From assembly GCA_944323875.1 (NCBI GenBank), contig CALUUH010000012.1, positions 1-51,524 on the forward strand: a DNA stretch of 51,524 bases, in the 5' to 3' direction. The position numbers and the translations under genes were made by a program. This stretch comes from Candidatus Gastranaerophilales bacterium. Lineage in GTDB: Bacteria; Cyanobacteriota; Vampirovibrionia; Gastranaerophilales; Gastranaerophilaceae. This document shows, piece by piece, positions 7,046 to 33,639 of the stretch (positions within the stretch are counted from its first letter, which is position 1; every line of letters starts with the position of its first letter). The notes under the pieces were generated by a model. It did not search any database and was not told the DNA's origin. It worked only from the letters and a program-made list of their open reading frames with translations.

Positions 7046-7292
7046 ATGGTTAAACATACAATTAATTTTCTAGTAAAAGGAGAAGAAATGACTAACACCG
7101 AGAGAGCTTGAAGTGTTGAAATTGCTGTGCTTGCAAGATAAAGAAATTTCAAAACGCTTAATAATAAGTGTGAGAACCGTAAAATGTCACATTCATAATA
7201 TTTTGAATAAGCTGGTATGTGAAACCCGTCAAAAAGCACTTATTAAAGCACTTAAACTCAAGATTATAGATATAGACGAGGTAGAAGGATGA
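7046..7292 (+). pseudogene. Third LuxR-type HTH gene, frameshifted
   Basis: Two starts with ribosome sites (ATG 7046 and, with AAAGGAG, ATG 7088) open the same frame, which ends at TGA 7109-7111 after MTNTERA. One frame over, from 7092, the sequence codes for LTPRELEVLKLLCLQ, then KRLIISVRTVKCHIHNIL and on to a stop at 7290-7292. This is a full LuxR HTH closely like the two intact copies. A TGA stands immediately before the CTA codon in that frame, so no start codon can serve the intact HTH. A one-base insertion or two-base deletion near 7091-7094 explains this. The HTH frame ends with an ATGA overlap on the methyltransferase start, showing that the ancestral gene was coupled to it. A programmed shift or assembly error is possible. 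Confidence 0.7.
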
Positions 7293-8068
7293 TAGATCGG
7301 GATCAAATAAGACAACAGGATCTTTACCTTATAAATGACAGTTTTCAAAATAGAAAGCAGTATAATATTCCTAAAGCGCAGTTGGTTATCGCAGACATTC
7401 CATATAATGTCGGAAACAATGCTTATGCAAGTAGTGTGCGTTGGTATAAAGACGGGGATATTAAAAACGGGGAAAGTGAATTTGCAAACTCACAATTCTT
7501 TGATACTGACAAAAATTTCAATCTTCACGAATTTTTTCATTTTTGTTCTAAACTAATTAAGCCCGAGCCCAAAGAAAAGAATAAAGCTGGTGCGTTAATA
7601 GTATTCTGTGCATTTGAACAACAATTTGAATTAATAAATCTTGCTAAACAGTTTAATTTTAAAAATTATATACCCTTGTCATTTTATAAAAACTATAGTC
7701 CGCAAGTTTTAAAAGCTAATATGCGTATTGTTGGAAATACGGAATATGCATTGCTATTCTATCGAGATAAATTACCAAAATTCAACAATAATCACAAAAT
7801 GATATTTAACTCAATGCCATACATCAAGGATAACAATATAGTAAAAATACATCCAACACAAAAAAGTACAAAGGTATTAAAGCAACTTATAAGTTTATTT
7901 ACGGATGTTGGTGATGTTGTTATTGATCCTTGTGCCGGCAGTGGGTCAACCCTGATCGCTGCAGCCGAGCTTAATAGAAAGGCTTATGGATTTGAGATAA
8001 AAAAAGAATTTGTAGCTAAATTTAATACAATGCTAAAAACGAATATTCAAAAGAATTTATTTGCTTAA
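7289..8068 (+). CDS. Orphan phage DNA methyltransferase (beta class, N6-A or N4-C)
   Basis: The 259-aa protein has the methyltransferase catalytic motif IV as DIPYN at residues 36-40 (usual form DPPY). The HPTQKS motif at 188-193 and the AdoMet-binding motif I as DPCAGSGST at 213-221 follow. The order IV-target region-I defines the beta class, which methylates adenine N6 or cytosine N4. No restriction enzyme gene is near, so it probably protects the element from host restriction or regulates its genes. Its ATG overlaps the stop of the upstream broken HTH frame (ATGA). A hairpin follows at 8094-8115. Confidence 0.85.
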   Translation: MIDRDQIRQQDLYLINDSFQNRKQYNIPKAQLVIADIPYNVGNNAYASSVRWYKDGDIKNGESEFANSQFFDTDKNFNLHEFFHFCSKLIKPEPKEKNKAGALIVFCAFEQQFELINLAKQFNFKNYIPLSFYKNYSPQVLKANMRIVGNTEYALLFYRDKLPKFNNNHKMIFNSMPYIKDNNIVKIHPTQKSTKVLKQLISLFTDVGDVVIDPCAGSGSTLIAAAELNRKAYGFEIKKEFVAKFNTMLKTNIQKNLFA

Positions 8069-8093
8069 GATTTACGGAAATAATGACTAAAAT

Positions 8094-8115
8094 CAGGCGG
8101 AAGCCCTTTCGCCTG
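8094..8115 (+). terminator. Possible weak terminator hairpin after the methyltransferase
   Basis: CAGGCG (8094-8099) pairs with CGCCTG (8110-8115) around a 10-base loop. There is no T tract directly after it, so intrinsic termination is uncertain; it may instead stabilise the transcript end. Confidence 0.4.
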
Positions 8116-8156
8116 TTACAAAAATTCATGAAGTTATTTTAAAAAGGAGAAAATAT

Positions 8157-8360
8157 ATGAAAAATAATGTTATATCACTTAATAATGATGTTTCAAGTAG
8201 AAGATTTTTGCGAGCAAAAGATATTCAGAAATTTTTTAATATAGCTCGAGCAACTGTGGATAATTGGGCCAAATATGGATATTTAACCCGTCATAAAATT
8301 GGCCGAAATGTATTTTATGAAGCAGAAGAAGTCGAAAAATTAAAAAGGATAGGGGTATAA
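8157..8360 (+). CDS. Excisionase-like / MerR-fold HTH protein
   Basis: The 67-aa product carries FLRAKDIQKFFNIARATVDNWAKYGYLTRHKIGRNVFY, the winged-helix pattern of small excisionase and MerR-like (HTH_17) DNA-binding proteins. AAAAGGAG precedes ATG. It lies one base upstream of the integrase in the same direction, the usual place for a directionality factor. Excisionase function is inferred from size, fold and position. Confidence 0.75.
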   Translation: MKNNVISLNNDVSSRRFLRAKDIQKFFNIARATVDNWAKYGYLTRHKIGRNVFYEAEEVEKLKRIGV

Positions 8361-8361
8361 A

Positions 8362-9477
8362 ATGGCAAGTATAAGAAAAAGAACCTGGAAAAATAAATCA
8401 GGAACACATATTTGTTATGAAATAAACTATGTTATTGATGGCAAACAATATCGGAAAAGTGGTTATAAATCATTAATAGAAGCGCAGCTAGACTTGCCTA
8501 ATGTTATTTTGGATAATAGTTCAGATATTAAATTTTCTATTTTGGCAAATGATTATTTGAACCGTCATTGCGAGTTAAATTGTAAACCTTCAACAAAAGC
8601 CTTATATGAGAATTATTTAAAAGTGAATTTAGCGGAAATAAAAGCCAAAAAAGCACGAGAAATAAAAAGACGAGATATAGAAACATTAATATTATTTTTA
8701 AAGGGCAAAGGATTAAGTAATAAAACTATTAACGGCATTATTACTTTTGTTCAAGCGGTATTAAATTATGGTGTCGATAACAGTTTTTTGAAAGAGAATC
8801 CAATAGCTAAATTTAAAAAACTACCGCAGACTAAACCTACCGTGCATTTTTTAAACGAAATACAGATAAAAGTTTTTTTAAAACTGGCAAAAGAATATTC
8901 AACAATGTATTATTCCTTTTTTGCCACCGCTTTATTCACTGGGATGAGACGCGGTGAATTGCTAGGACTGGAATGGTCGGATATTGATTTTAAGAGAGGT
9001 AAAATTAGTGTAAATAAACAAATATATAAGGGTGTGAAACAGTCAACAAAAACGAATAAAGAACGTATAATTGATATTTCAGAAAATTTGCTTGAAATTT
9101 TAAAGGAATATAAGATAAAAAATACGACATTTTCTAAATTAGTTTTTCATAATAAATCTGGAGGCCCATTGCATCCTTACAATATGGAGCAGTGGTATTT
9201 TCATCCTTTAATCCGACGATGCAATGAAATACTTGACGAAGAAAACCAGATTAAAAGGTTGAGATTTCATGATCTAAGACATACATATGCAACCTATTTA
9301 CTTTCCAACGGAGTTCCTGTAAAATATGTACAGGAACAGTTGGGGCATGCCACAGCGCGGATGACGTTAGATACATATGCGAGTGTTATGCCGAGTGTAA
9401 AATTTGAAGCACTTGATTTGCTAAAAAGACTACAAAAAAATGAAGTAATTGAGCACAAATTGAGCACGAAAGACTGA
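8362..9477 (+). CDS. int: Tyrosine recombinase (phage integrase)
   Basis: The 371-aa protein has an N-terminal arm-type DNA-binding region (MASIRKRTWKNKSGTH, YVIDGKQYRKSGYKS), a SAM-like core-binding domain (about 55-150) and a catalytic domain. The catalytic residues are visible: R196 in FTGMRRGELLGLEW, H303 and R306 in HDLRHTYAT, H329 in QLGHA and the nucleophile Y339 in LDTYA. It would carry out site-specific integration and excision of the element. The gene ends 17 bases before tRNA-Ser, which is the likely attachment region. The att core cannot be mapped because the other element end is outside the window. Confidence 0.93.
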   Translation: MASIRKRTWKNKSGTHICYEINYVIDGKQYRKSGYKSLIEAQLDLPNVILDNSSDIKFSILANDYLNRHCELNCKPSTKALYENYLKVNLAEIKAKKAREIKRRDIETLILFLKGKGLSNKTINGIITFVQAVLNYGVDNSFLKENPIAKFKKLPQTKPTVHFLNEIQIKVFLKLAKEYSTMYYSFFATALFTGMRRGELLGLEWSDIDFKRGKISVNKQIYKGVKQSTKTNKERIIDISENLLEILKEYKIKNTTFSKLVFHNKSGGPLHPYNMEQWYFHPLIRRCNEILDEENQIKRLRFHDLRHTYATYLLSNGVPVKYVQEQLGHATARMTLDTYASVMPSVKFEALDLLKRLQKNEVIEHKLSTKD

Positions 9478-20773: not shown

Positions 20774-21646
20774 ATGAGAATTAAATTTGTTCAAAATTTA
20801 ATAGATAGAATTAGAAATAAAGATTCCTTTAGAGAAACTTCAGCGAGAGAAGGTGTCAATAAGTTACGAAAGGAACTTTTAGAATTAAAATACATTCATC
20901 TACCAGCATTGAAAGCACACGAACAGGTATTCTGTAAATACAAAAATATTTATAAGGGTAAGGAAGTTGTGCTTGTCGCATCTGGTCCCACTGTTAAGGA
21001 ATATAATATGCTAAATGGAGCAGTACATATCGGTGTTAACCATACATTCACTTTGAGTAATGTCATATTGGATTATTTGTTTATCCATGATAGTTTAAAT
21101 AACTCGTCTTCATCAGAAATGCATAGTAAGGCAAATGATTATCGCCGTGGGCTATGTAAAAAAATGTATGGATATCATCCAATGAATATATGTAGTATCG
21201 CTGAACAGGATGCTATGGATGCAGATGCTGAACGTTACTATTTTGTCGACAATGAAATACCTACTTCTGAATATGTGCTGCTATCGGCCGATATTACTTC
21301 GCGCCCCTTAAATTGTTGGGCTTCTATAGTATTTCCAGCAATGGAATTTGCATTATATACACATCCTAAAAAAATATATCTTGTGGGATGTGATTGTGCA
21401 AAAAATGGTCATATTTATGCTTCTAACAAAAAAGATTTTTGTTCTGATCGTGATAAAATAATTTATGGTTGGAAACAAATCAAAAAATTTGCAAACAAGA
21501 AGTATCCAGATATAGAAATAGTTTCAATAAATCCAGTTGGATTGAAAAGTTTATTTAAAGATGTTTATACAGAAAATTACATACATAAACATCCTGAATT
21601 ATTAAAAGAAGATATTGAAATCATAACAAAGGAGAACCTATGTTAA
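20774..21646 (+). CDS. MptE/DUF115-like (motility accessory factor type) putative glycosyltransferase
   Basis: The 290-aa product has a Rossmann-like start after a helical N-terminus: YKGKEVVLVASGPTVKEYNML, later CWASIVFPAMEFALY and KIYLVGCDCAKNG. This resembles the MptE-like/DUF115 fold of Maf proteins, which are linked to transfer of pseudaminic or legionaminic acid, and more distantly GT42 sialyltransferases. It sits next to pseB, so a nonulosonate transferase is a reasonable guess but not proven. I use ATG 20774 because GGAG at 20760-20763 fits it; ATG 20765 is too close. It overlaps pseB by 7 bases. Confidence 0.6.
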   Translation: MRIKFVQNLIDRIRNKDSFRETSAREGVNKLRKELLELKYIHLPALKAHEQVFCKYKNIYKGKEVVLVASGPTVKEYNMLNGAVHIGVNHTFTLSNVILDYLFIHDSLNNSSSSEMHSKANDYRRGLCKKMYGYHPMNICSIAEQDAMDADAERYYFVDNEIPTSEYVLLSADITSRPLNCWASIVFPAMEFALYTHPKKIYLVGCDCAKNGHIYASNKKDFCSDRDKIIYGWKQIKKFANKKYPDIEIVSINPVGLKSLFKDVYTENYIHKHPELLKEDIEIITKENLC

Positions 21647-22632
21647 AAGACAAAACTATATTAGTAACAGGCGGAACAGGCAGTTTCGGAAAAAAATTCA
21701 TAAAAACAGTATTTGAAAAACATCCTGATGTAAAAAAGATTATTGTATTTTCCAGAGATGAATACAAACAATTTGTTATGTCTACAATGCCGGAATTTAA
21801 ACCATATCTTAACAAACTAAGATTTTTCATCGGCGATGTCAGAGATAAAGAACGTTTGATGAGAGCGTTTGAAAATGTGGATATAGTTATACACGCTGCA
21901 GCATTAAAACAGGTGCCGGCATGTGAATATAACCCGTTTGAAGCAATTAAAACAAATGTATTAGGTGCACAAAACATTATTGATGCAGCTATAGACAGAG
22001 GCGTAAAAAAGGTGGTTGCTCTTTCTACTGATAAAGCCTGCGCTCCGATTAATTTGTATGGAGCAACAAAATTGTGCTCTGATAAATTGTTTATTGCGGG
22101 TAATGCCTATTGCGGCGACAAAGATACGAGATTTGCCGTTGTAAGATACGGTAATGTTGCAGGTTCACGCGGTTCGGTTATTCCATACTGGCAAAAACTT
22201 GTCAAAGAAGGTGCAAAAGAATTACCTATAACAGATATGAATATGACGCGGTTCTGGTTGAAACTTGAACAGGCTGTTGAAATGGTACTTGAAGCAATTG
22301 AAAATATGCATGGCGGCGAATTGTATGTTAAAAAGATACCTTCAATGCGCATGCCGGATTTAGCAAAGGCAATTGCACCGGAGTTAAAAACAGTAGAAGT
22401 CGGTATCAGACCTGGTGAAAAAATCCATGAACAAATGATTACTCAGGCAGATGCTCCGAATACTATTGAATTTAACGATTATTATATTATTCTGCCGCAA
22501 ATGGATTTTGAAAATATTGAGTATAAATATCCGAATGCCAAATGTGTTGCGCCTGATTTCGAATATCATTCCGGCAACAACGATAGATGGCTCACTATTG
22601 ATGAGATGAGAAAGTTAATAAGCGAGATATAA
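21640..22632 (+). CDS. pseB: PseB, UDP-GlcNAc 4,6-dehydratase (inverting)
   Basis: The 330-aa protein is a short-chain-type dehydratase. NADP binding is shown by TGGTGSFGKKF (residues 10-20), and the catalytic group STDKACAPINLYGATK contains T130, D131, K132 and Y140-xxx-K144. The early HAAALKQVPACEYNPFEAIKTN segment is typical of PseB/FlaA1. It converts UDP-GlcNAc to the 4-keto-6-deoxy altrose-type intermediate, the first step of pseudaminic acid synthesis. GGAG precedes ATG. PseC lies 4.2 kb downstream, with an acyl-modification cassette between them. Confidence 0.93.
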   Translation: MLKDKTILVTGGTGSFGKKFIKTVFEKHPDVKKIIVFSRDEYKQFVMSTMPEFKPYLNKLRFFIGDVRDKERLMRAFENVDIVIHAAALKQVPACEYNPFEAIKTNVLGAQNIIDAAIDRGVKKVVALSTDKACAPINLYGATKLCSDKLFIAGNAYCGDKDTRFAVVRYGNVAGSRGSVIPYWQKLVKEGAKELPITDMNMTRFWLKLEQAVEMVLEAIENMHGGELYVKKIPSMRMPDLAKAIAPELKTVEVGIRPGEKIHEQMITQADAPNTIEFNDYYIILPQMDFENIEYKYPNAKCVAPDFEYHSGNNDRWLTIDEMRKLISEI

Positions 22633-22634
22633 AT

Positions 22635-23417
22635 ATGATTAATGAACTTAAAAATAAATTTACTGAACTGGGTATTGAGGAAGGCGATACAATTTTTGTT
22701 TCCTCTGACGTAACTCTGTTATTATATGACTCACTAAGAAGAAAACAAAAAATCACCTTAGACGATATAATTAATATATTACAAGACATAATAGGTCATA
22801 ACGGCAATTTAATTTTTCCAACTTACAACTGGGATTTCTGTAAGGGGAAAACTTTTGATTATAGTAAGACGATATCAAAAACCGGTTCGCTAACCCAAAG
22901 AGCACTAGATAGAATAGACTTTAAACGAACTAAACATCCTATATATTCGTTTGTGGTCTGGGGAAAGGATCAAGATTACCTTACAAGTCTTAATTATAAG
23001 GATTCTTTCGGGGCTGATTCAATATTTGGCTGGTTTGAAAAGGTGCAGGCAAAAAATTTAATTATTAATGTTTCATATCAACATTCTGCAACATTTGTTC
23101 ATTTCCTTGAAGAACGAAATAATGTCAACTACAGATTTATTAAGGATTTTACTGCACAATATACAGATGAAAACGGTAATACAAGTGTACAAACATATTC
23201 AATGTTTGTACGGTATCTGGATAAAGAAGTTATAACGACTATTGACCCTATGCATGAAGTGTTTGTAAAAAATGGTGCAGTCAAAGAAACCAAGTTTGTT
23301 AATTCTTATTTAAGATTATTAGATATGAAAAAAGCTTATGAGCTTGTTGAGTACAATATAAAATATGAAAATAGTGACAAATTAGCAATAATTAAAGAAT
23401 TAGAAGTTGCAAACTAA
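22635..23417 (+). CDS. AAC(3)-family N-acyltransferase, likely acting on a glycan amino sugar
   Basis: The 260-aa protein matches the AAC(3) fold: GIEEGDTIFVSSDV, GNLIFPTYNWDF, R-x-x-HP-x-YSF (with H101) and SATFVHFLEERNNV (H156). The family includes aminoglycoside acetyltransferases, but many members lie in glycan loci and acylate amino sugars. Followed by an acyl carrier protein and FkbH, it is the best candidate to move an acyl group from the carrier protein to the sugar. No antibiotic-resistance role is implied by context. It begins 2 bases after pseB and lacks a clear ribosome site. Confidence 0.8.
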   Translation: MINELKNKFTELGIEEGDTIFVSSDVTLLLYDSLRRKQKITLDDIINILQDIIGHNGNLIFPTYNWDFCKGKTFDYSKTISKTGSLTQRALDRIDFKRTKHPIYSFVVWGKDQDYLTSLNYKDSFGADSIFGWFEKVQAKNLIINVSYQHSATFVHFLEERNNVNYRFIKDFTAQYTDENGNTSVQTYSMFVRYLDKEVITTIDPMHEVFVKNGAVKETKFVNSYLRLLDMKKAYELVEYNIKYENSDKLAIIKELEVAN

Positions 23418-23434
23418 ATAGGAGAAATGTATAA

Positions 23435-23653
23435 ATGAATAATAAGGAAAAAATATTAGACTTAATGTCCACTATACTAAATAAGGAAATTACAGAAGAT
23501 GATACCAATAGTAGTGTAGATACGTGGGATTCTATGGCACAGCTTGAAATAATAGTAACAATAGAAGAAGAATTTGGGATAAAAATTCCTGAGGATAAAA
23601 TTCCTGAAATGACTTCTATTAAGAAAATTTTAGAGGTAATTGATAGTTTATGA
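23435..23653 (+). CDS. Stand-alone acyl carrier protein
   Basis: The 72-aa acidic protein has the phosphopantetheine site DTWDSMAQLEIIV with S33, and EEFGIKIPEDKIPEMTSI further on, the helix II-III pattern of carrier proteins. It is a dedicated carrier rather than the fatty-acid ACP, judging by its place in the glycan operon between an acyltransferase and FkbH. The attached group is unknown; glyceryl from 1,3-bisphosphoglycerate is the best-known FkbH product. AGGAG precedes ATG, and it overlaps the next gene by 4 bases (ATGA). Confidence 0.88.
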   Translation: MNNKEKILDLMSTILNKEITEDDTNSSVDTWDSMAQLEIIVTIEEEFGIKIPEDKIPEMTSIKKILEVIDSL

Positions 23654-24057
23654 TAAAATTTGAACTTGACCATCTTGGAATAATTGTAAAATCCATTGAT
23701 AAGGAACTAGAGACCTACAAAGCTTTAGGTTATAGTGTTGAGAGCGATATTTTTCAAGATAACAACCAGAAAATGAGAGGGCTTTTCTTAAATTCTCCAT
23801 CCAATGATTGTAGAATTGAACTTATTGAAGATTTGAGTGAAAGCAGAGCGCTTAGTAAAATGTTAAATACTCAGTGCGGTAGAATTTATCACCTAGCTTT
23901 TAAGGTTAAAAATTTGGAAGAACAAATTGAAGAAATTTTGAAACAATTAAACGCTAGAATATTATCTCCAATTAAAGAGGCTGAATATTATGCCAAAGTT
24001 TGTTTTTTATTTCTTCCTAATGCACAAATTATAGAATTGGTAGAATACAAATGCTAG
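23650..24057 (+). CDS. VOC/glyoxalase-fold protein, methylmalonyl-CoA epimerase-like
   Basis: The 135-aa protein starts FELDHLGIIVKSIDKELETY, then GLFLNSPSNDCRIELIED, GRIYHLAFKVKNLEEQI and IIELVEYKC. This is the paired beta-alpha-beta-beta-beta layout of the VOC superfamily, with likely metal ligands H9, E62, H90-region and E130-region. In this cassette it could epimerise or otherwise reshape the carrier-bound acyl group. Both ends overlap neighbours (4 and 7 bases), so it is tightly co-translated. The reaction is unknown. Confidence 0.75.
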   Translation: MIKFELDHLGIIVKSIDKELETYKALGYSVESDIFQDNNQKMRGLFLNSPSNDCRIELIEDLSESRALSKMLNTQCGRIYHLAFKVKNLEEQIEEILKQLNARILSPIKEAEYYAKVCFLFLPNAQIIELVEYKC

Positions 24058-25631
24058 AACAATTATTAAATAAAAATTTAACTAGATTAGAAATTCTAAA
24101 ATCAAAAACAGATAAAGAATTACTAAAAACTGTGCACATATCTGTATATAGAAATCATTCTTTTGAACATATGACGGGTATGATAAATAAGTTTTTAAAC
24201 CAGACAGGTTTAACTGCAGAATTTTCATTTAGTGATTATGATGACAGCTTTAATTTTGCACCATTAAGTCAGGATAATGATTTGAATTTAATCTGGATTG
24301 ATTTTTCCAGATATTCCCAAATTGATATTAATACCTGGTTTAATGAAAGAATTACGGCTTTAAAATCCATTTCTAAAAAGCCTATTCTTATATATTATAC
24401 AGGTACTAATTCAGTTATGCCGGATTGCAAAGATGTTGTAATAGTGAATTCTAACGATATTGAAGCAGAAATGGGAGCGGAATTTTTTGATATTGAAAAA
24501 TTTGAATACTCCGGAACTAGATTATCTTCAAAAGCTTCAATTAGAATATCACAAGAACTCGGGTTAAAATATCTGCCATCCTTTTTCTTGACTCCGATAA
24601 AAGCTATTGTTACGGATATGGACAATACGTTTTACAAAGGTATTATTGGTGAAGACGGATTTGATAATATTATTTCGAACTTGGAATATCAGAAAATATT
24701 AAAGAAACTAAAAGACAATGGTGTATTACTTTCCATTGCATCCAAAAATGAATATGAAGATGTAAAAAAATTATTTGAACTAAGAAAAGATTTTATTTTA
24801 AAATGGGATGATTTTTCATCTCATAACATATCCTGGGAGTCAAAAGACAAAGCTATATTGAATACTGCCAAACAATTTAATATAGGTATTGATAGTATTC
24901 TTTTTATTGATGATAATATTGGCGAAATAAATCTGGTAAAAAATTGTTATCCTAAAATTAATACTCTAATAGCTGGTGATAATCTTGATTATAAAATAAA
25001 TATCTATCCGCTACTAGAGAGATACACTGTTTCAAATGAAGACAAGTTGCGTGCAAGTGATATTGATGCTAATCAAAAACGAAATGAAATGTTTGCGACA
25101 ATGGATAAGGATGAATATTTTAAAAGCCTTGAAATGGTATTAACTTATTCATTTGATGATTCAAACCATTTTGAGCGTGCTATACAACTTTTAAACAAGA
25201 CAAATCAATTTATTTTTTCTTATGCCAGATATTCTAAAGAGGACATAACAAATAAGCAGCACATCTTAACTATTAGCTTAAAAGATAAACTTTCTGACAG
25301 CGGAATTATCGGAATTATTGTTGCTGAAAAAAACAATGAGAATAATTTACAGGTTGATGAAGTTGTTATATCTTGCAGGGCATTAGGCAGAAATATAGAA
25401 GATTTAATGCTTAATAAAGCTTTTGAGTATTTAGCAAAAAAATTAGAAACATCTGATGATATAATTTTTAACTTCAAAATTGGTGAACGCAATACACCGG
25501 CAAAAAATTGGCTTCAAAATTATATTAACAAGTCCATTGTGCATGATTGCATTGTTAATGCTAAAATCAAAAATATTAATGAAAATAAATATATTAAAGT
25601 GGAGTATAAAGACAAATGTATGAGCTACTAA
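24051..25631 (+). CDS. FkbH-family HAD-like acyl-transfer enzyme
   Basis: The 526-aa product has an N-terminal region (1-about 180), a HAD-IIIC domain with DMDNTFYKGIIGEDG (D189, D191, T193) and SIASKNEYEDV plus FIDDNIGEINLVK. A C-terminal GNAT-like region ends near ERNTPAKNWL. FkbH proteins load a glyceryl group from 1,3-bisphosphoglycerate onto an acyl carrier protein while removing phosphate; relatives act in polyketide and glycan loci. The adjacent ACP is the expected partner. It overlaps the VOC gene by 7 and the next gene by 16 bases. Confidence 0.85.
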   Translation: MLEQLLNKNLTRLEILKSKTDKELLKTVHISVYRNHSFEHMTGMINKFLNQTGLTAEFSFSDYDDSFNFAPLSQDNDLNLIWIDFSRYSQIDINTWFNERITALKSISKKPILIYYTGTNSVMPDCKDVVIVNSNDIEAEMGAEFFDIEKFEYSGTRLSSKASIRISQELGLKYLPSFFLTPIKAIVTDMDNTFYKGIIGEDGFDNIISNLEYQKILKKLKDNGVLLSIASKNEYEDVKKLFELRKDFILKWDDFSSHNISWESKDKAILNTAKQFNIGIDSILFIDDNIGEINLVKNCYPKINTLIAGDNLDYKINIYPLLERYTVSNEDKLRASDIDANQKRNEMFATMDKDEYFKSLEMVLTYSFDDSNHFERAIQLLNKTNQFIFSYARYSKEDITNKQHILTISLKDKLSDSGIIGIIVAEKNNENNLQVDEVVISCRALGRNIEDLMLNKAFEYLAKKLETSDDIIFNFKIGERNTPAKNWLQNYINKSIVHDCIVNAKIKNINENKYIKVEYKDKCMSY

Positions 25632-26875
25632 AGAAAATTTTTCCTATTTGCCGCTCTATTACAGGCAAAGGTGTAAGAGAGACCTTGAATATTTTAAAAG
25701 AAGAATGTCAATTGCTAAATATTTATGAAATTCCATCAGGCACACCTGTTTTTGATTGGACAATTCCTGATGAATGGAATATAAATGATGCCTGGATTAA
25801 AAATTCAAAAGGTGAAAAAATAATCGACTTTAAAGAAAACAATCTTCATGTTGTCGGTTATTCTACCCCTATTCACAAAAAAGTTAATTTAGAAGAACTT
25901 TTAAAAATTGTATATACATTACCAGAACAACCTGATGCTATACCATATATAACCTCATATTATAAAGAAAGATATGGCTTTTGTATGAGTGAAAATCAAA
26001 AAAAAGCTCTTGTTGATGATGAATACGAAATCTTTATTGACTCAGAGTTAAAACCCGGTTCATTAACTTATGGAGAAATTATAATCCCGGGTCAAAGTAC
26101 AAAAGAAATCTTTTTATCTACTTATATTTGTCATCCATCAATGGCAAATAATGAATGCTCCGGTCCTGTTGTTGCAATAAATCTTGCAAAATGGCTTATG
26201 AACAGGCAGAATAAATATACTTACCGAATTGTATTTGCTCCTGAAACAATAGGTAGTATAACTTATTTAAGTAAAAATTTAAAAGTCTTAAAAGAAAATG
26301 TAATTGCAGGATATATATTAACCTGTGTCGGCGATAATCGTTGTTATTCATATTTAGCCAGCCGTTATGGTAATACACTTGCTGATAGAGCAGCATTAAG
26401 TATTTTAAAAAATTATGCTCCTGATTATGTTCATTATTCTTATCTTGACAGAGGATCAGATGAAAGACAGTATTGCTCTCCCGGTGTAGATTTGCCGGTA
26501 TGTTCTGTTATGCGGACTAAATACGGAGTTTATCCTGAATACCATACTTCGCTGGATAATTTAGATTTGGTTAATGAGGAAGGACTCAGAGGTACATTTG
26601 AGTTATACAAAAAAATTATTACGGCTATTGAAAACAATGCTAAATACAAAATTAACACACCTTGTGAACCTCAATTAGGAAAGCGGGGACTTTATCCTAC
26701 ACTTTCAACAAAACAGAGCGGTAAACAAGTACGTAATTTAATGAATGTTATAACATATCTTGACGGAACAAATGATATATTTGACATATCAGAAATAACT
26801 AAAGTTTCTGTTGACGAAGTTATAGAGCATATCCAAAAATTAAAATCCGCAGGCCTATTGGAGGAAGTTCAATGA
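25616..26875 (+). CDS. DUF4910 aminopeptidase-like protein with winged-helix tail
   Basis: The 419-aa protein has the aminopeptidase-like (M28-related) layout seen in DUF4910/DUF2172 proteins of polysaccharide loci. It opens IFPICRSITGKGVRETL. The metal-site segments are STYICHPSMANNECSGP, APETIGSITYL, DRGSDERQYCSPGVDLP and YPEYHTSLDNLD, and a winged-helix-like C-terminus (FDISEITKVSVDEVI) follows. Homologues are repeatedly found in glycan operons but their substrate is not known; a hydrolase of an amide on a sugar is possible. It overlaps FkbH by 16 bases and pseC by 4. Confidence 0.75.
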   Translation: MYELLKKIFPICRSITGKGVRETLNILKEECQLLNIYEIPSGTPVFDWTIPDEWNINDAWIKNSKGEKIIDFKENNLHVVGYSTPIHKKVNLEELLKIVYTLPEQPDAIPYITSYYKERYGFCMSENQKKALVDDEYEIFIDSELKPGSLTYGEIIIPGQSTKEIFLSTYICHPSMANNECSGPVVAINLAKWLMNRQNKYTYRIVFAPETIGSITYLSKNLKVLKENVIAGYILTCVGDNRCYSYLASRYGNTLADRAALSILKNYAPDYVHYSYLDRGSDERQYCSPGVDLPVCSVMRTKYGVYPEYHTSLDNLDLVNEEGLRGTFELYKKIITAIENNAKYKINTPCEPQLGKRGLYPTLSTKQSGKQVRNLMNVITYLDGTNDIFDISEITKVSVDEVIEHIQKLKSAGLLEEVQ

Positions 26876-27960
26876 AAACATACAGTTACGGTAAACAACA
26901 TATTACGGATGAAGATATACAGAGCGTGGTTGAGGTTTTAAAATCGCCATATCTGACCTGCGGGCCGAAAGTCAGCAAATTTGAACAGGCAATCTGTGAT
27001 TATACAGGCGCAAAATACTGTGTTACTGTTAATTCCGCGACTTCAGGACTTCATATCGCAATGCTTGCGGCGGGCGTCGGAGTTGGTGATGAAGTTATTA
27101 CAACACCGATTACGTTTTTGGCAAGTGCCAATTGCGCACGATATTGCGGCGCTGATGTTAAGTTTGCTGATATAGAAAAAGATACGGCAAACATTGATCC
27201 GGAAGAAATAAAAAAACACCTGTCGGCTAAAACAAAAGCGCTTGTTCCGGTACATTTTGCCGGTCAAAGCTGTGATATGGAACGCATTGCAAAAATTGCA
27301 AAAGAAAATAATTTAATTGTGGTAGAAGATGCTGCGCACGCTATCGGGTCTGAATACAAGGGCTCAAAAGTTGGATCTTGTAAATATTCTGATATGACGG
27401 TATTTTCTTTCCATCCGGTAAAAACAATTACGACAGCAGAAGGCGGGGCCGTCACGACAAACGATGAGGCACTTTATAAAAAATTGCTGGCATATCGTTC
27501 TCATGGCATGCATCATACACAGGATTGGAAATACGATATGATAGAACTCGGGTTCAACTATCGTATGACAGATGTTCAAGCGGCACTCGGAATTTCACAG
27601 ATGAAAAAACTGGCGCAATTCAAAAAACGCAGACGCGAGATAGTTGATTTTTATAATAAAAATCTTGGTTTGCCGCATTTGATTGAGCGGGAATTTTCAG
27701 ATGCCTGCTTCCATCTTTATCCGGTATTGGTAGAGGAGCGGGAAGCTTTTTATCATAATGCGAGAAAAGTTGGCTTGAACTTGCAGGTGCATTATATACC
27801 TGTGCATACTCAGCCGTACTATCAGACACAAGGATACAAATGGGGCGATTATCCGAATGCGGAAGAATACTATAATCACTGCATTTCATTGCCTCTGTAT
27901 CCGGATTTAACTGATGAAGATTTACAAGAAATTGTGAAAAGGATAAAGGAAATTTTATGA
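26872..27960 (+). CDS. pseC: PseC, UDP-4-keto-6-deoxy-sugar aminotransferase
   Basis: The 362-aa protein is a DegT/DnrJ/EryC1-type PLP aminotransferase: SYGKQHITDEDIQSVVEVL, NSATSGLHIAML, VVEDAAHAIGSEYKG and the PLP lysine K184 in FSFHPVKTITTAEGG. RSHGMH and FNYRMTDVQAALG also follow the family. It aminates the PseB product at C4 in pseudaminic acid synthesis. The GC content is visibly higher than in the cassette just upstream (22635-26875). It overlaps both neighbours by 4 bases (ATGA). Confidence 0.92.
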   Translation: MKTYSYGKQHITDEDIQSVVEVLKSPYLTCGPKVSKFEQAICDYTGAKYCVTVNSATSGLHIAMLAAGVGVGDEVITTPITFLASANCARYCGADVKFADIEKDTANIDPEEIKKHLSAKTKALVPVHFAGQSCDMERIAKIAKENNLIVVEDAAHAIGSEYKGSKVGSCKYSDMTVFSFHPVKTITTAEGGAVTTNDEALYKKLLAYRSHGMHHTQDWKYDMIELGFNYRMTDVQAALGISQMKKLAQFKKRRREIVDFYNKNLGLPHLIEREFSDACFHLYPVLVEEREAFYHNARKVGLNLQVHYIPVHTQPYYQTQGYKWGDYPNAEEYYNHCISLPLYPDLTDEDLQEIVKRIKEIL

Positions 27961-28856
27961 AATTATGTATTGGTACTGTCCAATTTGGAATGGATTACGG
28001 AATTAACAACCAGAAAAAACCGACGTTGGAAGATAGTATAAAAATGCTTGACTATGCAACACAAAATGGCATTGATAATATTGATACAGCTTTTGCCTAT
28101 GGTTCTGCCGAAGATGTTGTTGGAGCATTTTTAAATAAAAAAACTATTTCTAGAGACAAGTTATTCATTATTTCCAAATTTAAACCTAATGAATTAGATA
28201 ATGTTAAACCTGAAAATTATCAAAAAGTTATTGAAGAAAATTTGGAAAAATCTCTGAAACGTTTGGGAACAGATTATTTAGACAGCTATATGCTGCATAG
28301 TTCTCGTTATGCTTTTAATGATGAAATATTAGAAGCAATGTACAATGTTAAAAAAAGCGGTAAAATACGGCATTGCGGAGTTTCTGTATACTATCCGGAT
28401 GAAGCAAAAAAATGTATAAACAGTGATTTTGTTGATTTTATGCAGCTTCCATTCAGCATTTTTGATCAAAGAATGGCTAATGAAGGAGTATTTGACCTCG
28501 CGGCCAATGTAAAAAACACCCAGATTCATTCAAGAAGTGCCTTTATTCAAGGTTTAATCCTGATGTCGGAAAATGATGTTCCGGAATTTTTATCCGGAGC
28601 AAAACCTATAGTTCGAAAAATAGATACCTTATGTAATAAGCATAAGATTTCCAGAATTAAGCTTGCTCTCTTGTTCGTAAAGCAGTTTGCGGAAATATCT
28701 CATCTTGTTTTTGGAGTTGATAACATTGAGCAGCTAAAGGAAAATATAAAAATTTTTGAAGAAGATTTTTCAAAAGATATTTTGGAAGAAATTGCTCAAG
28801 AATTTAAAAATATTGATACGAATATCGTTATGCCAAGTTTATGGGTTAAAAAGTAA
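27957..28856 (+). CDS. Aldo/keto reductase of the nonulosonate locus
   Basis: The 299-aa protein is an AKR: LCIGTVQFGMDYGI, IDNIDTAFAYGSAEDVVG (catalytic Asp and Tyr), FIISKFKP, YLDSYMLHSS and IRHCGVSVYYPDEA. It lacks nothing obvious of the TIM-barrel core. In many pse-type loci an AKR accompanies pseC and pseF without an assigned step; it could reduce a sugar or a carrier-derived precursor. It overlaps pseC by 4 bases and is followed after 1 base by the GNAT gene. Confidence 0.85.
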   Translation: MKLCIGTVQFGMDYGINNQKKPTLEDSIKMLDYATQNGIDNIDTAFAYGSAEDVVGAFLNKKTISRDKLFIISKFKPNELDNVKPENYQKVIEENLEKSLKRLGTDYLDSYMLHSSRYAFNDEILEAMYNVKKSGKIRHCGVSVYYPDEAKKCINSDFVDFMQLPFSIFDQRMANEGVFDLAANVKNTQIHSRSAFIQGLILMSENDVPEFLSGAKPIVRKIDTLCNKHKISRIKLALLFVKQFAEISHLVFGVDNIEQLKENIKIFEEDFSKDILEEIAQEFKNIDTNIVMPSLWVKK

Positions 28857-28857
28857 T

Positions 28858-29415
28858 ATGATATACAATGAAATTATAAATGGTCAAAAAATATATTTGA
28901 GAATGCTTGAATTGGATGATTGTAAGCAATATTATGCTGATTGGATGAATGATAAAGCAGTAAATCAATATTTGGAAAGCCGCTGGACAGAACAAACGCC
29001 GGCGCGCATACAGGATTTTGTAAAATCAATTAGAGAAAGCACTCATAGTTATATGTTTGCGATTATTTTTCAAAACAGACATGTTGGTAATATAAAACTA
29101 GGTCCAATACATCCTATATATAAATATGCGGATATCGGTTATCTTATTGGCGATAGAACCGTATGGGGATTAGGAATTGCAACAGAAGCTATTTCTTTGA
29201 TTACAAGATTTGGATTTGAAGTTCTTAAACTGAATCGATTGCAAGCAGGATGTTTTGAACAGAATATTGGCTCACAACGGGCACTTCAAAAAAATAATTA
29301 CACACTTGAATGTATAAACCGGCAAAAAGCATTTTTAAATTATGGTGATACTTATAGTGATATTTATCAATATGCTATTTTGTGTGACGAATGGAATAAA
29401 ATGAAGGAGGCTTAA
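28858..29415 (+). CDS. GNAT N-acetyltransferase, RimJ/RimL-like, PseH candidate
   Basis: The 185-aa product has the GNAT core: YLRMLELDDCKQYYADWMNDKAVN, FAIIFQNRHVGNIKL, and the acetyl-CoA loop region WGLGIATEAISLITRFGF, then LQAGCFEQNIGSQRALQK. PseH acetylates the 4-amino group of the UDP-altrose intermediate, and this stand-alone GNAT is one of two candidates; the other is the domain fused to PseI. I start at ATG 28858 because the longer upstream extension overlaps the AKR gene and is out of family. Confidence 0.75.
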   Translation: MIYNEIINGQKIYLRMLELDDCKQYYADWMNDKAVNQYLESRWTEQTPARIQDFVKSIRESTHSYMFAIIFQNRHVGNIKLGPIHPIYKYADIGYLIGDRTVWGLGIATEAISLITRFGFEVLKLNRLQAGCFEQNIGSQRALQKNNYTLECINRQKAFLNYGDTYSDIYQYAILCDEWNKMKEA

Positions 29416-29416
29416 A

Positions 29417-30742
29417 ATGAAAACTATATTAAATAATCAAAAATCAAAAGAATTACAGGAAAAAGCAGCTAAAATAATTCCAGGAATGACCCAACTGTTA
29501 TCTAAACGACCTGACAGATATTCAAGAGGCGTATGGCCAACTTATTTTAAAGAAGCGCATGGTATCGAAGTTGTGGATTTAGATGATAATAAATATTTGG
29601 ACTTTAGTATTGGCGGAGTTGGAGCCACTGTTTTAGGCTATGCTGATCCTGATGTAAATCAGGCTGTCATTGATGTTATAAATAAGGGTTCTGCCTCAAC
29701 ACTCAACCCGCCGGAAGAAGTAAAATTAGCTGAAAAACTGCTGGAGTTGCATCCCTGGGCGGATATGGCACGATTTGCACGTGGCGGCGGTGAAGCAATG
29801 TCTATAGCAGTAAGAATTGCACGTGTTGCAACGGGTAAAGATAAGATTGTTTTTTGTGGTTATCATGGATGGTGCGACTGGTATCTTGCAGCAAATTTAG
29901 GTAAACAAGGAGCATTAGATGACCAATGGATTCCGGGATTAAACCCTAACGGCGTCCCTAAAGGTTTGACAGGTACAGCTATTCCTTTTTATTATAATGA
30001 TATAGATAATTTTAAAAAAGCTATTGAACAGGCTGGTGATGATTTAGCTGCCATTGTTATGGAACCTATAAGAAATTATGAACCAACTCAAGAATTTATT
30101 GATGCAATACATGATATGGCACATACTAAAAAAGTTCCTCTAATCATTGATGAAATCACAGCTGCATTTAGAATGTGTAATGGCGGAGCACACTTAAAAC
30201 TCGGATTTAATCCGGATATGGCTGTATTTTCAAAAGCACTGGGAAACGGATTTCCAAGTTCTGCTGTTATTGGTAAAAAATGGATAATGGAATATGCTCA
30301 AGATGCATTCATAACATCTACAAATTGGACTGAACGCGTTGGGGCTGCTGCGGCTTTGGCAATGATCGAAAAATTTGTAAAAGTTGATGCATCAACCCAT
30401 ATGTTGGCAATATCTGATAAAGTATGGGAAATATGGGAAAATCTAGGTAAAAAGTATGGTATAAAACTTCATATCGGAGGATTTAAGCCTCTTATACATT
30501 TCTCTTTTGAAGAAAATCATGCGGTTAATATCGCATACTTTACTCAGGAAATGCTAAAAAAAGGATTCCTTGCAGGAAGCGGATTTTATGCAATGTATGC
30601 ACACACATTTGCAGATGTTGACAAGTATGAAAAAGCTGCTGATGAAGTATTTGCACAACTATCTGAACTTATAAAATCAGGTAAGGTAAAAGAAAATCTT
30701 GAAGGTGAACCTGCAGCAAGTGGTTTTGGGAGAATAAACTAA
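29417..30742 (+). CDS. Class III PLP aminotransferase, glutamate-1-semialdehyde aminomutase-like
   Basis: The 441-aa protein has HemL-like features: RYSRGVWPTYFKEAHG, VDLDDNKYLDFSIGGVG, FARGGGEAMSIAVRIAR, CGYHGWCDWYLA, LIIDEITAAFR and the PLP lysine in VFSKALGNGFPSSAVIG. It is probably not the tetrapyrrole enzyme, since it lies between a GNAT and the CMP-sugar synthetase in the nonulosonate operon; similar genes occur in other such loci. It may aminate a sugar or acyl precursor. GGAGG precedes ATG, and it overlaps pseF by one base. Confidence 0.82.
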   Translation: MKTILNNQKSKELQEKAAKIIPGMTQLLSKRPDRYSRGVWPTYFKEAHGIEVVDLDDNKYLDFSIGGVGATVLGYADPDVNQAVIDVINKGSASTLNPPEEVKLAEKLLELHPWADMARFARGGGEAMSIAVRIARVATGKDKIVFCGYHGWCDWYLAANLGKQGALDDQWIPGLNPNGVPKGLTGTAIPFYYNDIDNFKKAIEQAGDDLAAIVMEPIRNYEPTQEFIDAIHDMAHTKKVPLIIDEITAAFRMCNGGAHLKLGFNPDMAVFSKALGNGFPSSAVIGKKWIMEYAQDAFITSTNWTERVGAAAALAMIEKFVKVDASTHMLAISDKVWEIWENLGKKYGIKLHIGGFKPLIHFSFEENHAVNIAYFTQEMLKKGFLAGSGFYAMYAHTFADVDKYEKAADEVFAQLSELIKSGKVKENLEGEPAASGFGRIN

Positions 30743-31425
30743 TGTCAACTCTTGCAATAATAACAGCACGCGGTGGAAGCAAAAGAATTCCGCGCAAAAA
30801 TATACGAGATTTTATGGGGAAACCTATGATTGCTTATGCAATTGAGGCGGCCAGGGACTCTCATATTTTTGATGAAATAATGGTATCGACAGAAGATACA
30901 GAAATTGCTCAAATTGCAGTAAAATACGGAGCCAACGTTCCTTTTATGAGGAGTGAAAAAACGGCGAGTGATTATGCTACGACATTTGATGTTCTTGATG
31001 AAGTTATAAAAGAATACTCAAAGCTTGGTAAAAAATTTGAGAATATTTGTTGTATTTATCCATGCGTGCCTTTTTTAAAATCGGAGACCTTAATTGAATG
31101 TTACAAAAAATTTCAAAATTTTGATGCACTCATACCTGTTTGCAAATATCCGGTACCGATAGAATGGGCAATGAAAATAGAAAATAATTTACTTGTACCA
31201 AATGATCGAGATGCTCAGAATATGCGCTCTCAAGATTTGAGTGCTAAATATTTTGATGTCGGCATGTTTTATTTTTGTAAAACCGTAAAAATGTATGAAT
31301 ATAAATCGCTTGTGCCTGAAAAGACTACCGCTTATATTATTGATGAACTGGAATGTCAGGACATCGATACAGAAGACGACTGGAAAATGGCAGAATTAAA
31401 GTATAAGGTGCTGCGCAATGTATAA
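30742..31425 (+). CDS. pseF: PseF/NeuA-type CMP-nonulosonate cytidylyltransferase
   Basis: The 227-aa protein has the cytidylyltransferase start IITARGGSKRIPRKNIRDF (7-25), KPMIAYAIEAA, VSTEDTEIAQIA, YPCVPFLKS and the late DVGMFYF and IDTEDDWKMAE segments. It activates pseudaminic-type acid with CTP to the CMP-sugar donor. PseF rather than NeuA is favoured by the neighbouring PseB, PseC and PseI genes. Overlaps: one base upstream, 8 bases downstream. Confidence 0.88.
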   Translation: MSTLAIITARGGSKRIPRKNIRDFMGKPMIAYAIEAARDSHIFDEIMVSTEDTEIAQIAVKYGANVPFMRSEKTASDYATTFDVLDEVIKEYSKLGKKFENICCIYPCVPFLKSETLIECYKKFQNFDALIPVCKYPVPIEWAMKIENNLLVPNDRDAQNMRSQDLSAKYFDVGMFYFCKTVKMYEYKSLVPEKTTAYIIDELECQDIDTEDDWKMAELKYKVLRNV

Positions 31426-32179
31426 ACTTGGACTAAAACTCTGGAGTATAAATACAGATTATTATTACGACGAAGCAATTCGCCTGTATAATGACGGAGT
31501 TTTTGATTATATTGAGTTATATGTTGTACCGGACACGCTTGACAGGCTTGACAAGTGGAAAAACTTGGACATTCCGTTTATTATTCACTGTCCGCATTTT
31601 ATGCACGGCTTTAATATGGCAAAGGTTGAGAAAAAAGAAAGCAACTTGGCTATTTATAAGCAGGTAAAGCAATTTGCAGATGAATTAAACGCTGAATATA
31701 TAATTTTTCATGGCGGTATTGACGGAAATATTGAAGAAACAGCCCGCCAGCTTGCGAGTTTTAAAGAGCCGCGTGCCTTGATTGAAAACAAACCTTTTGT
31801 AGCGCTGCCAAATACAATGGGCGGAAATTTTTGCCGCGGTTACAATATTGACGAAATAAAAAAAGTAATGGAGGCAGCAAAATGTGGATTTTGCCTGGAT
31901 ATCGGGCATGCAATTTGTGCCGCTAACAGCCAAAATAAAGAAATATATCGCTACAGTGAAGATTTTATGATTTTAAAACCTAAAATGTTTCACCTTACAG
32001 ATAATGAGGATATAACATCTCCTTATGATACACATTTACATCTTGGAACAGGAACATTAGATTTAGATAAAATCAAAAAAATCCTTCCGGCAGATGCGAG
32101 AATTACACTTGAAACAGTCAAAAATTCTAAAACAAATCTGGATGATTTTGTGGAGGATGCAAAATGCGTGAAGAACTAA
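31418..32179 (+). CDS. Sugar phosphate isomerase/epimerase-like TIM-barrel protein
   Basis: The 253-aa product follows the xylose-isomerase-like TIM barrel: LGLKLWSINTDYYYDEAI, DYIELYVVPDTL, IIHCPHFMHG, YIIFHGGIDGN, FCLDIGHAIC and MFHLTDNED, with likely metal ligands E, H and D on successive strands. Its position between pseF and pseI is where pseG would be expected, but the fold is different from the PseG nucleotide-sugar hydrolase. Its reaction is unknown; it might replace a missing step or modify the precursor. It overlaps both neighbours. Confidence 0.72.
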   Translation: MYKLGLKLWSINTDYYYDEAIRLYNDGVFDYIELYVVPDTLDRLDKWKNLDIPFIIHCPHFMHGFNMAKVEKKESNLAIYKQVKQFADELNAEYIIFHGGIDGNIEETARQLASFKEPRALIENKPFVALPNTMGGNFCRGYNIDEIKKVMEAAKCGFCLDIGHAICAANSQNKEIYRYSEDFMILKPKMFHLTDNEDITSPYDTHLHLGTGTLDLDKIKKILPADARITLETVKNSKTNLDDFVEDAKCVKN

Positions 32180-33639
32180 AATTAAGATTAGCAGAAGAAA
32201 AAGACATTGAAAATGTATTTGATTTATCAAATGATCCAACTGTAAGATTAAATTCTTTTCATACTGAAAAAATTTCCTGGACAACTCATGAGAAATGGTA
32301 CAGTGATAAAATAAATTCTGTTGACACCTTTTTTTATATTATAGAAATTAACAAAGAATTTACAGGCTATATAAGACTAGATAAAGATAATACAAAATGG
32401 CTGATATCAATTGCAATAAATCCTGTTGCTCGTGGTAAAAGTTACGGTTTAAAAGCTTTGCAAAAACTCCAAAAAATTCATCCTGATAAAACTCTTATTG
32501 CTTATGTAAAAATTAACAATAAAGCATCAATTAATATGTTTTTAAAAGATAATTTTAAAATAATACAACAAGAATCAATATCTGGTCAACCTGCCTACAA
32601 ACTTATTGCATCACCACAAAATCGAGTATACATCATAGCGGAAATGTCGGCAAATCATTGCGGCGACAAGGAATTAGCAAAAAAAATCATCAAAAAAGCA
32701 AAAGAAATTGGCGCAGATGCCGTTAAAATTCAAACCTATACAGCTGATACAATAACCATCAACTGCGACAGTGACATTTTTATGACAAAACCCGACAGTT
32801 TATGGGCCGGTCAAACTCTTTACAGCCTGTACCAGAAAGCTTACACTCCATGGGAATGGCAGGGTGAATTAAAGGCCTATGCTGATGAAATAGGTATTGA
32901 CTTTTTCTCAACCCCGTTCGATTACACCGCTGTTGATTTTCTCGAAAGCATCAATGTTCCGATGTACAAAATAGCTTCTTTTGAGGCAATTGACTATCCT
33001 TTGATAAAATACGCGGCACGGCACGGAAAACCGATGATTATTTCTGTCGGCATATCCTCTTTTGAAGAAATTCAAGGCGCAATCGATGCCTGCAAGTCCG
33101 TCGGCAACAATGATATTACAATCTTGAAATGCACCTCCGCCTATCCTGCAAAATTAGAAGATATGAATTTGAATACTATCAAAGATATGTATGAAAAATT
33201 TGCTCCGCAAGGCGTTAAAATAGGCATTTCAGATCACTCCATGAGTATAGTACCGCCTGTAACAGCCGTTGCTCTTGGCGCTAAGGTAATAGAAAAGCAT
33301 CTGACTCTTGATAGGCGATTAGGGGGTGAAGATAGCGGTTTTTCACTTAATGCAGATGAATTTGCGACAATGATAAAGGCCGTGCGCGAAACCGAAAAAG
33401 TGCTCGGTAAAGTTGATTATTCAATAAATGAAAATAATCGTAAAAGCGCGCGCTCTCTGTTTGTCGTTAAAAATATCAAAAAAGGCGAAAAATTTACGCA
33501 GGAAAATATTCGTTCTATCAGGCCGTCTAACGGATTACATCCGAAATTTTACGAAAATGTTCTGGGAAAAACCGCGGTTTGCGATTTGAACTTCGGCACA
33601 CCACTACAAAAAGAATTTATAAAAGAAGGATTAGAATAA
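32164..33639 (+). CDS. pseI: GNAT-PseI fusion, pseudaminic acid synthase with N-terminal acetyltransferase
   Basis: Residues 1-150 form a GNAT domain: RLAEEKDIENVFDLSNDP, NSFHTEKISWTTHEKWY, IAINPVARGKSYGLKAL and NNKASINMFLKDNF. That subtype is typically seen at the C-terminus of PseG. From residue 155 it is a NeuB-family synthase (YIIAEMSANHCGDKELAKK, DAVKIQTYTADT, FFSTPFDYTAVDFL, IGISDHS, EKHLTLDRRLGGEDSGFS) with a SAF domain at the C-terminus. It condenses the 6-deoxy sugar with phosphoenolpyruvate. Length 491 aa is about 150 more than normal PseI. It overlaps the TIM-barrel gene by 16 bases. Confidence 0.9.
   Translation: MREELKLRLAEEKDIENVFDLSNDPTVRLNSFHTEKISWTTHEKWYSDKINSVDTFFYIIEINKEFTGYIRLDKDNTKWLISIAINPVARGKSYGLKALQKLQKIHPDKTLIAYVKINNKASINMFLKDNFKIIQQESISGQPAYKLIASPQNRVYIIAEMSANHCGDKELAKKIIKKAKEIGADAVKIQTYTADTITINCDSDIFMTKPDSLWAGQTLYSLYQKAYTPWEWQGELKAYADEIGIDFFSTPFDYTAVDFLESINVPMYKIASFEAIDYPLIKYAARHGKPMIISVGISSFEEIQGAIDACKSVGNNDITILKCTSAYPAKLEDMNLNTIKDMYEKFAPQGVKIGISDHSMSIVPPVTAVALGAKVIEKHLTLDRRLGGEDSGFSLNADEFATMIKAVRETEKVLGKVDYSINENNRKSARSLFVVKNIKKGEKFTQENIRSIRPSNGLHPKFYENVLGKTAVCDLNFGTPLQKEFIKEGLE

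Follow-up and report, generated by a model that had tools for sequence, protein, structure and literature searches.

A carrier-protein cassette flanked by pseB and pseC in a gut Melainabacteria genome: a probable N-acyl exchange module for pseudaminic acid

Described glyceroyl systems and the window cassette

Which genes place a glyceroyl group on bacterial sialic-acid-like sugars is an open question. We analyzed a 51,524-base stretch (the window) of the 1.94 Mb genome of a gut Melainabacteria, whose near relatives are Candidatus Gastranaerophilales, in which genes for an AAC(3)-fold acyltransferase, a stand-alone acyl carrier protein (ACP), a VOC-fold protein, FkbH and a DUF4910 protein lie between the pseudaminic acid genes pseB and pseC. 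We consider it probable that this cassette exchanges N-acyl groups on pseudaminic acid by way of a dedicated carrier protein. The set names FkbH, ACP, VOC and AAC(3) as candidates for glyceroyl decoration, and it gives AAC(3), a family associated with antibiotic resistance, and FkbH, associated with polyketide supply, a further use in decorating sugars.

Glyceroyl decoration and its link to DUF4910 are already known. In Campylobacter jejuni, Cj1295 (435 aa, DUF4910 family), encoded side by side with and directly behind pseB (Cj1293) and pseC (Cj1294), is required for the di-O-methylglyceroyl that pseudaminic acid carries at N5 (PMC3068675). Cj1296/7 is listed as an N-acetyltransferase. Published descriptions give cj1302 an FkbH domain and make cj1301 an epimerase (PMC7099621); that of cj1302 was the only mention that we found of FkbH in the literature on pseudaminic acid or flagellin glycosylation. 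Tannerella forsythia has a CMP-Pse locus for a pseudaminic acid with an N-glyceroyl group (Pse5Am7Gra), but there the glyceroyl is at C7 and the gene "remains elusive" (PMC6120980). In Clostridium acetobutylicum, genes for DUF4910 (CA_C2195, structure 3K9T), a glyoxylase, an ACP, an N-acetyltransferase and an N-acetyltransferase-HAD fusion stand beside spsE and spsF within CA_C2186–CA_C2199 (PMC4000134, Table 2), an operon that we read as the same kind of module. The 2014 paper thus reported DUF4910 as a neighbor of ACP, acyltransferase and HAD genes, but it did not call the HAD domain FkbH and named no acyl group (PMC4000134). Tetronate and methoxymalonyl pathways also combine an FkbH-like enzyme with a stand-alone ACP, but their glyceryl goes to a polyketide and not to a sugar amine. 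In C. jejuni, we take cj1299 to be an ACP and cj1300 a methyltransferase. Within the open-licence literature, we found no paper that assigns FkbH, ACP, VOC and AAC(3) to glyceroyl, though one may exist elsewhere.

Open reading frames and Pfam and NCBIfam profiles gave the following order in the window, with bit scores set against the curated cut-off where one applies.

21640..22632, + strand: PseB, UDP-GlcNAc 4,6-dehydratase (inverting), upstream border (TIGR03589, 515 bits vs 408)
22635..23417, + strand: AAC(3)-fold N-acyltransferase, proposed glyceroyl-ACP:amino-nonulosonate (or precursor) N-acyltransferase (PF02522, Antibiotic_NAT, 93 bits vs 25)
23435..23653, + strand: stand-alone ACP, phosphopantetheine site S33 (PF00550, PP-binding, 28.1 bits vs 20.8)
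23650..24057, + strand: VOC-fold protein, proposed epimerase-like tailoring enzyme on the carrier-bound acyl group (PF13669, Glyoxalase_4, 60 bits vs 27)
24051..25631, + strand: FkbH, HAD-IIIC glyceryl-ACP loading enzyme, D189, D191, T193 and C442 (TIGR01686, 272 bits vs 147)
25616..26875, + strand: DUF4910/DUF2172/HTH_47 aminopeptidase-like protein, relative of Cj1295, proposed N-deacylase or transacylase (PF16254, 355 bits; 3K9T, 404 bits)
26872..27960, + strand: PseC aminotransferase, downstream border (TIGR03588, 486 bits vs 424)

A sequence-only reading of this DNA had placed five overlapping genes here. All five were confirmed on the + strand, exactly at their given positions or very close to them, S33 of the ACP and D189, D191 and T193 of FkbH were confirmed on a residue check, and the placement inside a pseudaminic acid pathway is borne out by PseB, PseC, PseF and PseI, which all exceed curated equivalog cut-offs. 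The packing is tight, with overlaps of 4 bp (ACP/VOC), 7 bp (VOC/FkbH), 16 bp (FkbH/DUF4910) and 4 bp (DUF4910/PseC), but overlap does not extend to the first junctions, where AAC(3) and ACP are 17 bp apart and PseB and AAC(3) 2 bp apart. The five genes have a G+C content of 28–32%, compared with 37% for PseB and 41% for PseC, which fits an inserted cassette; other genes of the pse locus are equally G+C-poor.

With DUF4910, AAC(3), ACP and FkbH together beside pseB and pseC, the window holds the content of the Campylobacter-type cassette. The likeness to C. jejuni cj1293–cj1302, as seen in Campylobacterota genomes with the same gene order, extends to PseB, PseC, DUF4910 of the same metal-site class (NNE, described below), AAC(3), ACP, VOC and FkbH. 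Compared with C. jejuni, however, the window cassette is rearranged, lies between pseB and pseC, has no poly-G tracts and encodes an AAC(3) only about 26% identical. We found neither a methyltransferase nor FabH beside it, whereas the C. jejuni product is the 2,3-di-O-methyl form, and a tblastn comparison of four cassette methyltransferases with the window (E up to 1) gave no match. Because the O-methyltransferase or methyltransferases needed for a methylated product were not found, we treat the cassette as a variant and predict an unmethylated glyceroyl. No flagellin match was detected in the host genome, and the sugar is thus probably destined for a surface polysaccharide or a non-flagellar glycan. 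What is new here is this rearranged set, lacking methyltransferases, in a genome with no detected flagellin.

Recurrence and natural fusions of the cassette genes

The gene set recurs in Campylobacterota. By profile search, 42 of 298 genomes have FkbH, and 20 regions were fetched (loci carry L numbers below). Eleven of these 20 contained PseB-PseC-DUF4910-AAC(3), then FkbH and FabH-ACP. In 10 of the 11, an ACP and one or two methyltransferases lie between AAC(3) and FkbH, usually in the order ACP-methyltransferase-(VOC)-FkbH; in the remaining one (L120), a MaoC/SDR-like protein replaces the stand-alone ACP before FkbH. We equate this arrangement with C. jejuni cj1293–cj1304, because the published gene placement and descriptions match (PMC3068675, PMC7099621). 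Tracts of at least nine G or C occur in DUF4910, AAC(3) and VOC genes of Campylobacterota (L114, L123, L125 and others), so that the module looks phase-variable there; no such tract is present in the window cassette. A frameshift splits DUF4910 or AAC(3) in some of these genomes, as expected of phase-variable genes.

Beyond Campylobacterota, the contig of a Spirochaetia metagenome-assembled genome (MAG; L050) has the order methyltransferase-methyltransferase-ACP-VOC-FkbH-AAC(3)-DUF4910, with 58% (AAC(3)) and 66% (DUF4910) identity to the window proteins. In a Pseudomonadota locus (L177), FkbH-ACP-AAC(3)-methyltransferase-DUF4910 precedes flgK, a gene judged flgL-like by eye, and PseB. The recurrence check suggested by the sequence-only reading thus returned the set in 11 Campylobacterota pse loci, a Spirochaetia contig and a flgK-PseB locus. 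A scan of viral contigs for FkbH gave no match. In the FkbH tree, the window groups with L050 and L051 (support 100/98), and the Campylobacterota pse cassettes form a separate clade. Presence with AAC(3) requires at least two changes on this tree; FkbH and AAC(3) were therefore joined, or swapped between module carriers, more than once.

Natural fusions tie each enzyme type to N-acyl transfer independently of gene order in the window. AAC(3) and FkbH form a single protein of about 831–848 aa in three Pseudomonadota loci (L178, L179 and L181). AAC(3) and DUF4910 form a single 704-aa protein in a genome from the bacterial family to which the window belongs (L141/L199), with a divergent DUF4910 part that belongs to neither main class of that family. 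GNAT-VOC fusions of 325–332 aa occur in many FkbH-ACP loci that also carry FdtA, RmlA, RmlB or DegT genes. Since the five-gene set recurs in other phyla and its members are fused in nature, it is not a chance grouping. The core proposal, glycan decoration by way of a carrier protein, draws support from this recurrence, from the AAC(3)-FkbH fusions and from C. jejuni genetics (PMC3068675).

In the sequence-only reading the VOC protein adjusts the acyl group, and we keep a tailoring role for it. The step appears to be optional, as a VOC gene was undetectable in four of the 11 Campylobacterota cassettes (L113, L120, L121 and L122), and we rejected VOC as an essential part of the module on this ground. 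The only methyltransferase in those four is one about 60% identical to that of L118. VOC is present with an L118-like methyltransferase (L116–L119, L132) or with both methyltransferases (L114, L123); the last two have a poly-G tract inside VOC. On this pattern, from a small sample, VOC may ready the substrate for one of the methyltransferases in a step that can be turned on and off.

Enzyme evidence and the proposed exchange

The AlphaFold2 model of AAC(3) (predicted local distance difference test, pLDDT, 90) matched AAC(3)-family structures with Z 23–26, and E159 and the catalytic His, H156, were invariant in 16 aligned sequences. S33 of the ACP sits in a WDS motif. The VOC protein, with conserved motifs H8, ELIE, YH and IELVE, scored 49 bits against the methylmalonyl-CoA epimerase model TIGR03081 (cut-off 115) and is a relative of that enzyme, not the enzyme itself. 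D189, D191, T193 and C442 were invariant in the FkbH alignment; the conserved cysteine of FkbH has an acyl transfer role. We first suspected that the host had no phosphopantetheinyl transferase, and dropped this idea once a weak match was read as Sfp-like. That candidate (contig C10, L136:1078–1761; motifs read by eye) is divergent, barely recognized by the ACPS family model and without a Pfam match at the threshold used. Given this candidate, the window ACP is plausibly chargeable. A LuxE-type family search of the host genome found none.

The DUF4910 protein has the domain order of its family (DUF4910, DUF2172 and HTH_47). Sequence motifs divide the family in two, each class having its own type of metal site. 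CHPSMANNE.SGP (NNE) is found in the window, L050, the Campylobacterota relatives and many Pseudomonadota, and CHPS..NDN.SG (NDN) in 3K9T and others. The NNE class forms one side of a single branch in the DUF4910 tree (support 100/99), within which the window and L050 are sisters (100/99), and the window protein is 46–51% identical to its Campylobacterota relatives. Its site comprises H173, N179, E180 and H310. Among the 3K9T zinc ligands, which define zinc binding and not family membership, His189 and His324 are retained as H173 and H310, and Asp195, which binds zinc in 3K9T (PMC4000134), is replaced by N179. The C. acetobutylicum protein differs in this respect, as an NDN member that keeps the zinc Asp. 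Outside Campylobacterota, AAC(3) lay within 7 kb in 10 of 16 NNE loci with enough flanking sequence versus none of eight NDN loci (Fisher p 0.006, indicative only, as the pattern was noticed before counting, the ten include the window, the loci contain some near copies and two short contigs were excluded).

Together, these observations fit a scheme of loading, opening and transfer. FkbH would take glyceryl from 1,3-bisphosphoglycerate, load it onto the ACP and strip the phosphate, as in established FkbH chemistry; FkbH and an ACP give glyceryl-ACP in studied polyketide pathways (PMC7489565). The VOC protein may then tailor the ACP-bound glyceryl, probably by epimerizing the carbon adjacent to the thioester, which is the weakest step. 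The N5 nitrogen of pseudaminic acid derives from UDP-GlcNAc and is already N-acetylated, so an exchange or opening step is needed. DUF4910 could open this amide or join in the exchange, as proposed for Cj1295, and AAC(3) would transfer glyceryl from the ACP to the freed N5 amine, giving a predicted unmethylated N-glyceroyl pseudaminic acid. The sequence-only reading had instead assigned deacetylation to an LmbE protein encoded at 19146. That gene ends 2.7 kb upstream and its family is absent from all recurring sets, making the DUF4910 protein inside the cassette the likelier candidate.

Several points weigh against this scheme. The Asp-to-Asn change is common to the whole NNE class, Campylobacterota relatives included, and the DUF4910 family is without the usual M28 catalytic residues (PMC4000134). 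With the zinc Asp changed and those residues missing, the chemistry of DUF4910, hydrolytic or otherwise, is uncertain, and simple M28-type hydrolysis is weakened as an explanation. Six of the 16 NNE loci with enough flanking sequence have no nearby AAC(3). Identity between the window AAC(3) and those of Campylobacterota is just 25–28%. The published C. jejuni work that we found ties only Cj1295 to glyceroyl, and not the FkbH, ACP, VOC or AAC(3) homologs. FkbH domains also handle other acyl groups in natural-product pathways.

Alternative explanations mostly keep the module and change its target or cargo. AAC(3) might acylate the 4-amino group made by PseC (the future N7), with DUF4910 as a helper or acting on another substrate. 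The position of the cassette directly before PseC, the glyceroyl at N7 in T. forsythia (PMC6120980, PMC6388019) and the altered DUF4910 metal site could all be explained in this way, but two PseH-like GNAT domains are already available for N7, C. jejuni carries its related, DUF4910-dependent glyceroyl at N5 (PMC3068675), and the pairing or fusion of AAC(3) with DUF4910 extends across phyla; we consider acylation at N7 unlikely. It is a little less likely still that the carrier-bound group is a different small hydroxy acid, in which case FkbH and VOC would produce a modified C3 unit. Related AAC(3)-DUF4910 pairs adjoin AMP ligases or MaoC-SDR genes instead of FkbH-VOC, so the acyl group probably varies among loci; the C. 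jejuni-like FkbH set, however, yields a glyceroyl derivative, and glyceryl-ACP is what FkbH makes in the polyketide pathways cited above.

A change of sugar is a poorer prospect again. Here, as the sequence-only reading had also allowed, the acyl group would go to a different amino sugar in the surface glycan, with the LmbE/PIG-L protein at 19146 freeing its amino group. The proximity of that gene and the FkbH-ACP-VOC sets in FdtA, RmlA, RmlB and DegT loci, which suggest N-acylated 3-amino-dideoxyhexoses, are in line with this, but the window cassette lacks FdtA and is located between pseB and pseC, FdtA-type sets mostly have a GNAT-VOC fusion and not AAC(3) with DUF4910, and PIG-L is outside the recurring sets. 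Finally, the AAC(3) fold could point to a true aminoglycoside resistance gene, or to a natural-product fragment present in the pse locus by chance. Resistance was rejected on the score against the aminoglycoside-resistance equivalog NF033082 (30 bits, curated cut-off 270); no polyketide synthase or nonribosomal peptide synthetase genes were found among the annotated neighbors, and the same set recurs in pse loci, leaving this explanation highly improbable.

Returning to N-acyl exchange on pseudaminic acid, a broader version is possible, although we hold it only tentatively. The NNE DUF4910 and the AAC(3)-fold protein may act on nonulosonic acids in general as a portable N-acyl exchange pair, served by varied carrier-protein acyl suppliers: FkbH-ACP-VOC where the cargo is glyceryl, and MaoC-SDR-ACP or AMP ligases where it is another group. 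The altered NNE metal site would then serve a new amide-exchange chemistry. We also observed SDR proteins with MaoC-like N-terminal parts beside AAC(3)-FkbH or AAC(3)-DUF4910 genes (L178:1427–2908, L179:4436–5920 and L120:7410–8771); two of the three end in an ACP, a hint at other acyl groups.

Remaining pse genes and related sets

Downstream of the cassette, three further genes of the pathway were recognized.

28756..29415, + strand: PseH-like GNAT, likely N-acylates the 4-amino group, the future N7 (PF13302, 83 bits; TIGR03585 PseH, 35 bits, below 93)
30742..31425, + strand: PseF, CMP-pseudaminic acid synthetase (TIGR03584, 259 bits vs 206)
32164..33639, + strand: PseI, pseudaminic acid synthase with an N-terminal PseH-like GNAT domain, the second besides 28756–29415 (TIGR03586, 462 bits vs 340)

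The listed start of the first overlaps an aldo-keto reductase gene and is probably too early. That reductase (27957–28856) and a glutamate-1-semialdehyde-type aminotransferase (29417–30742) also lie inside the pse locus. PseG (TIGR03590) was not found in the whole host genome, which is 97% complete. A TIM-barrel protein related to endonuclease IV is encoded between PseF and PseI (31418–32179), and a close relative occurs between PseC-like and NeuB genes in an Akkermansia MAG (L070:1463–2320). From this placement, the TIM-barrel protein may replace the UDP-sugar hydrolase PseG.

An FkbH-ACP-VOC set, mostly with a VOC-GNAT fusion and often with FdtA, is widespread in dTDP-sugar loci (L049, L056, L063–L068, L071–L075 and others) of Clostridia, Vibrio, including Vibrio ruber, Ruegeria, Mixta, Treponema and Gastranaerophilales. 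These sets share FkbH, ACP, VOC and an N-acyltransferase with the window, but they have GNAT and not AAC(3), no DUF4910, and dTDP-3-amino-dideoxyhexose genes in place of pse genes. Their gene content indicates that they likely N-acylate 3-amino-dideoxyhexoses. Upstream of the glycan locus, the window encodes a DNA methylase and a phage-type integrase (7289–9477).

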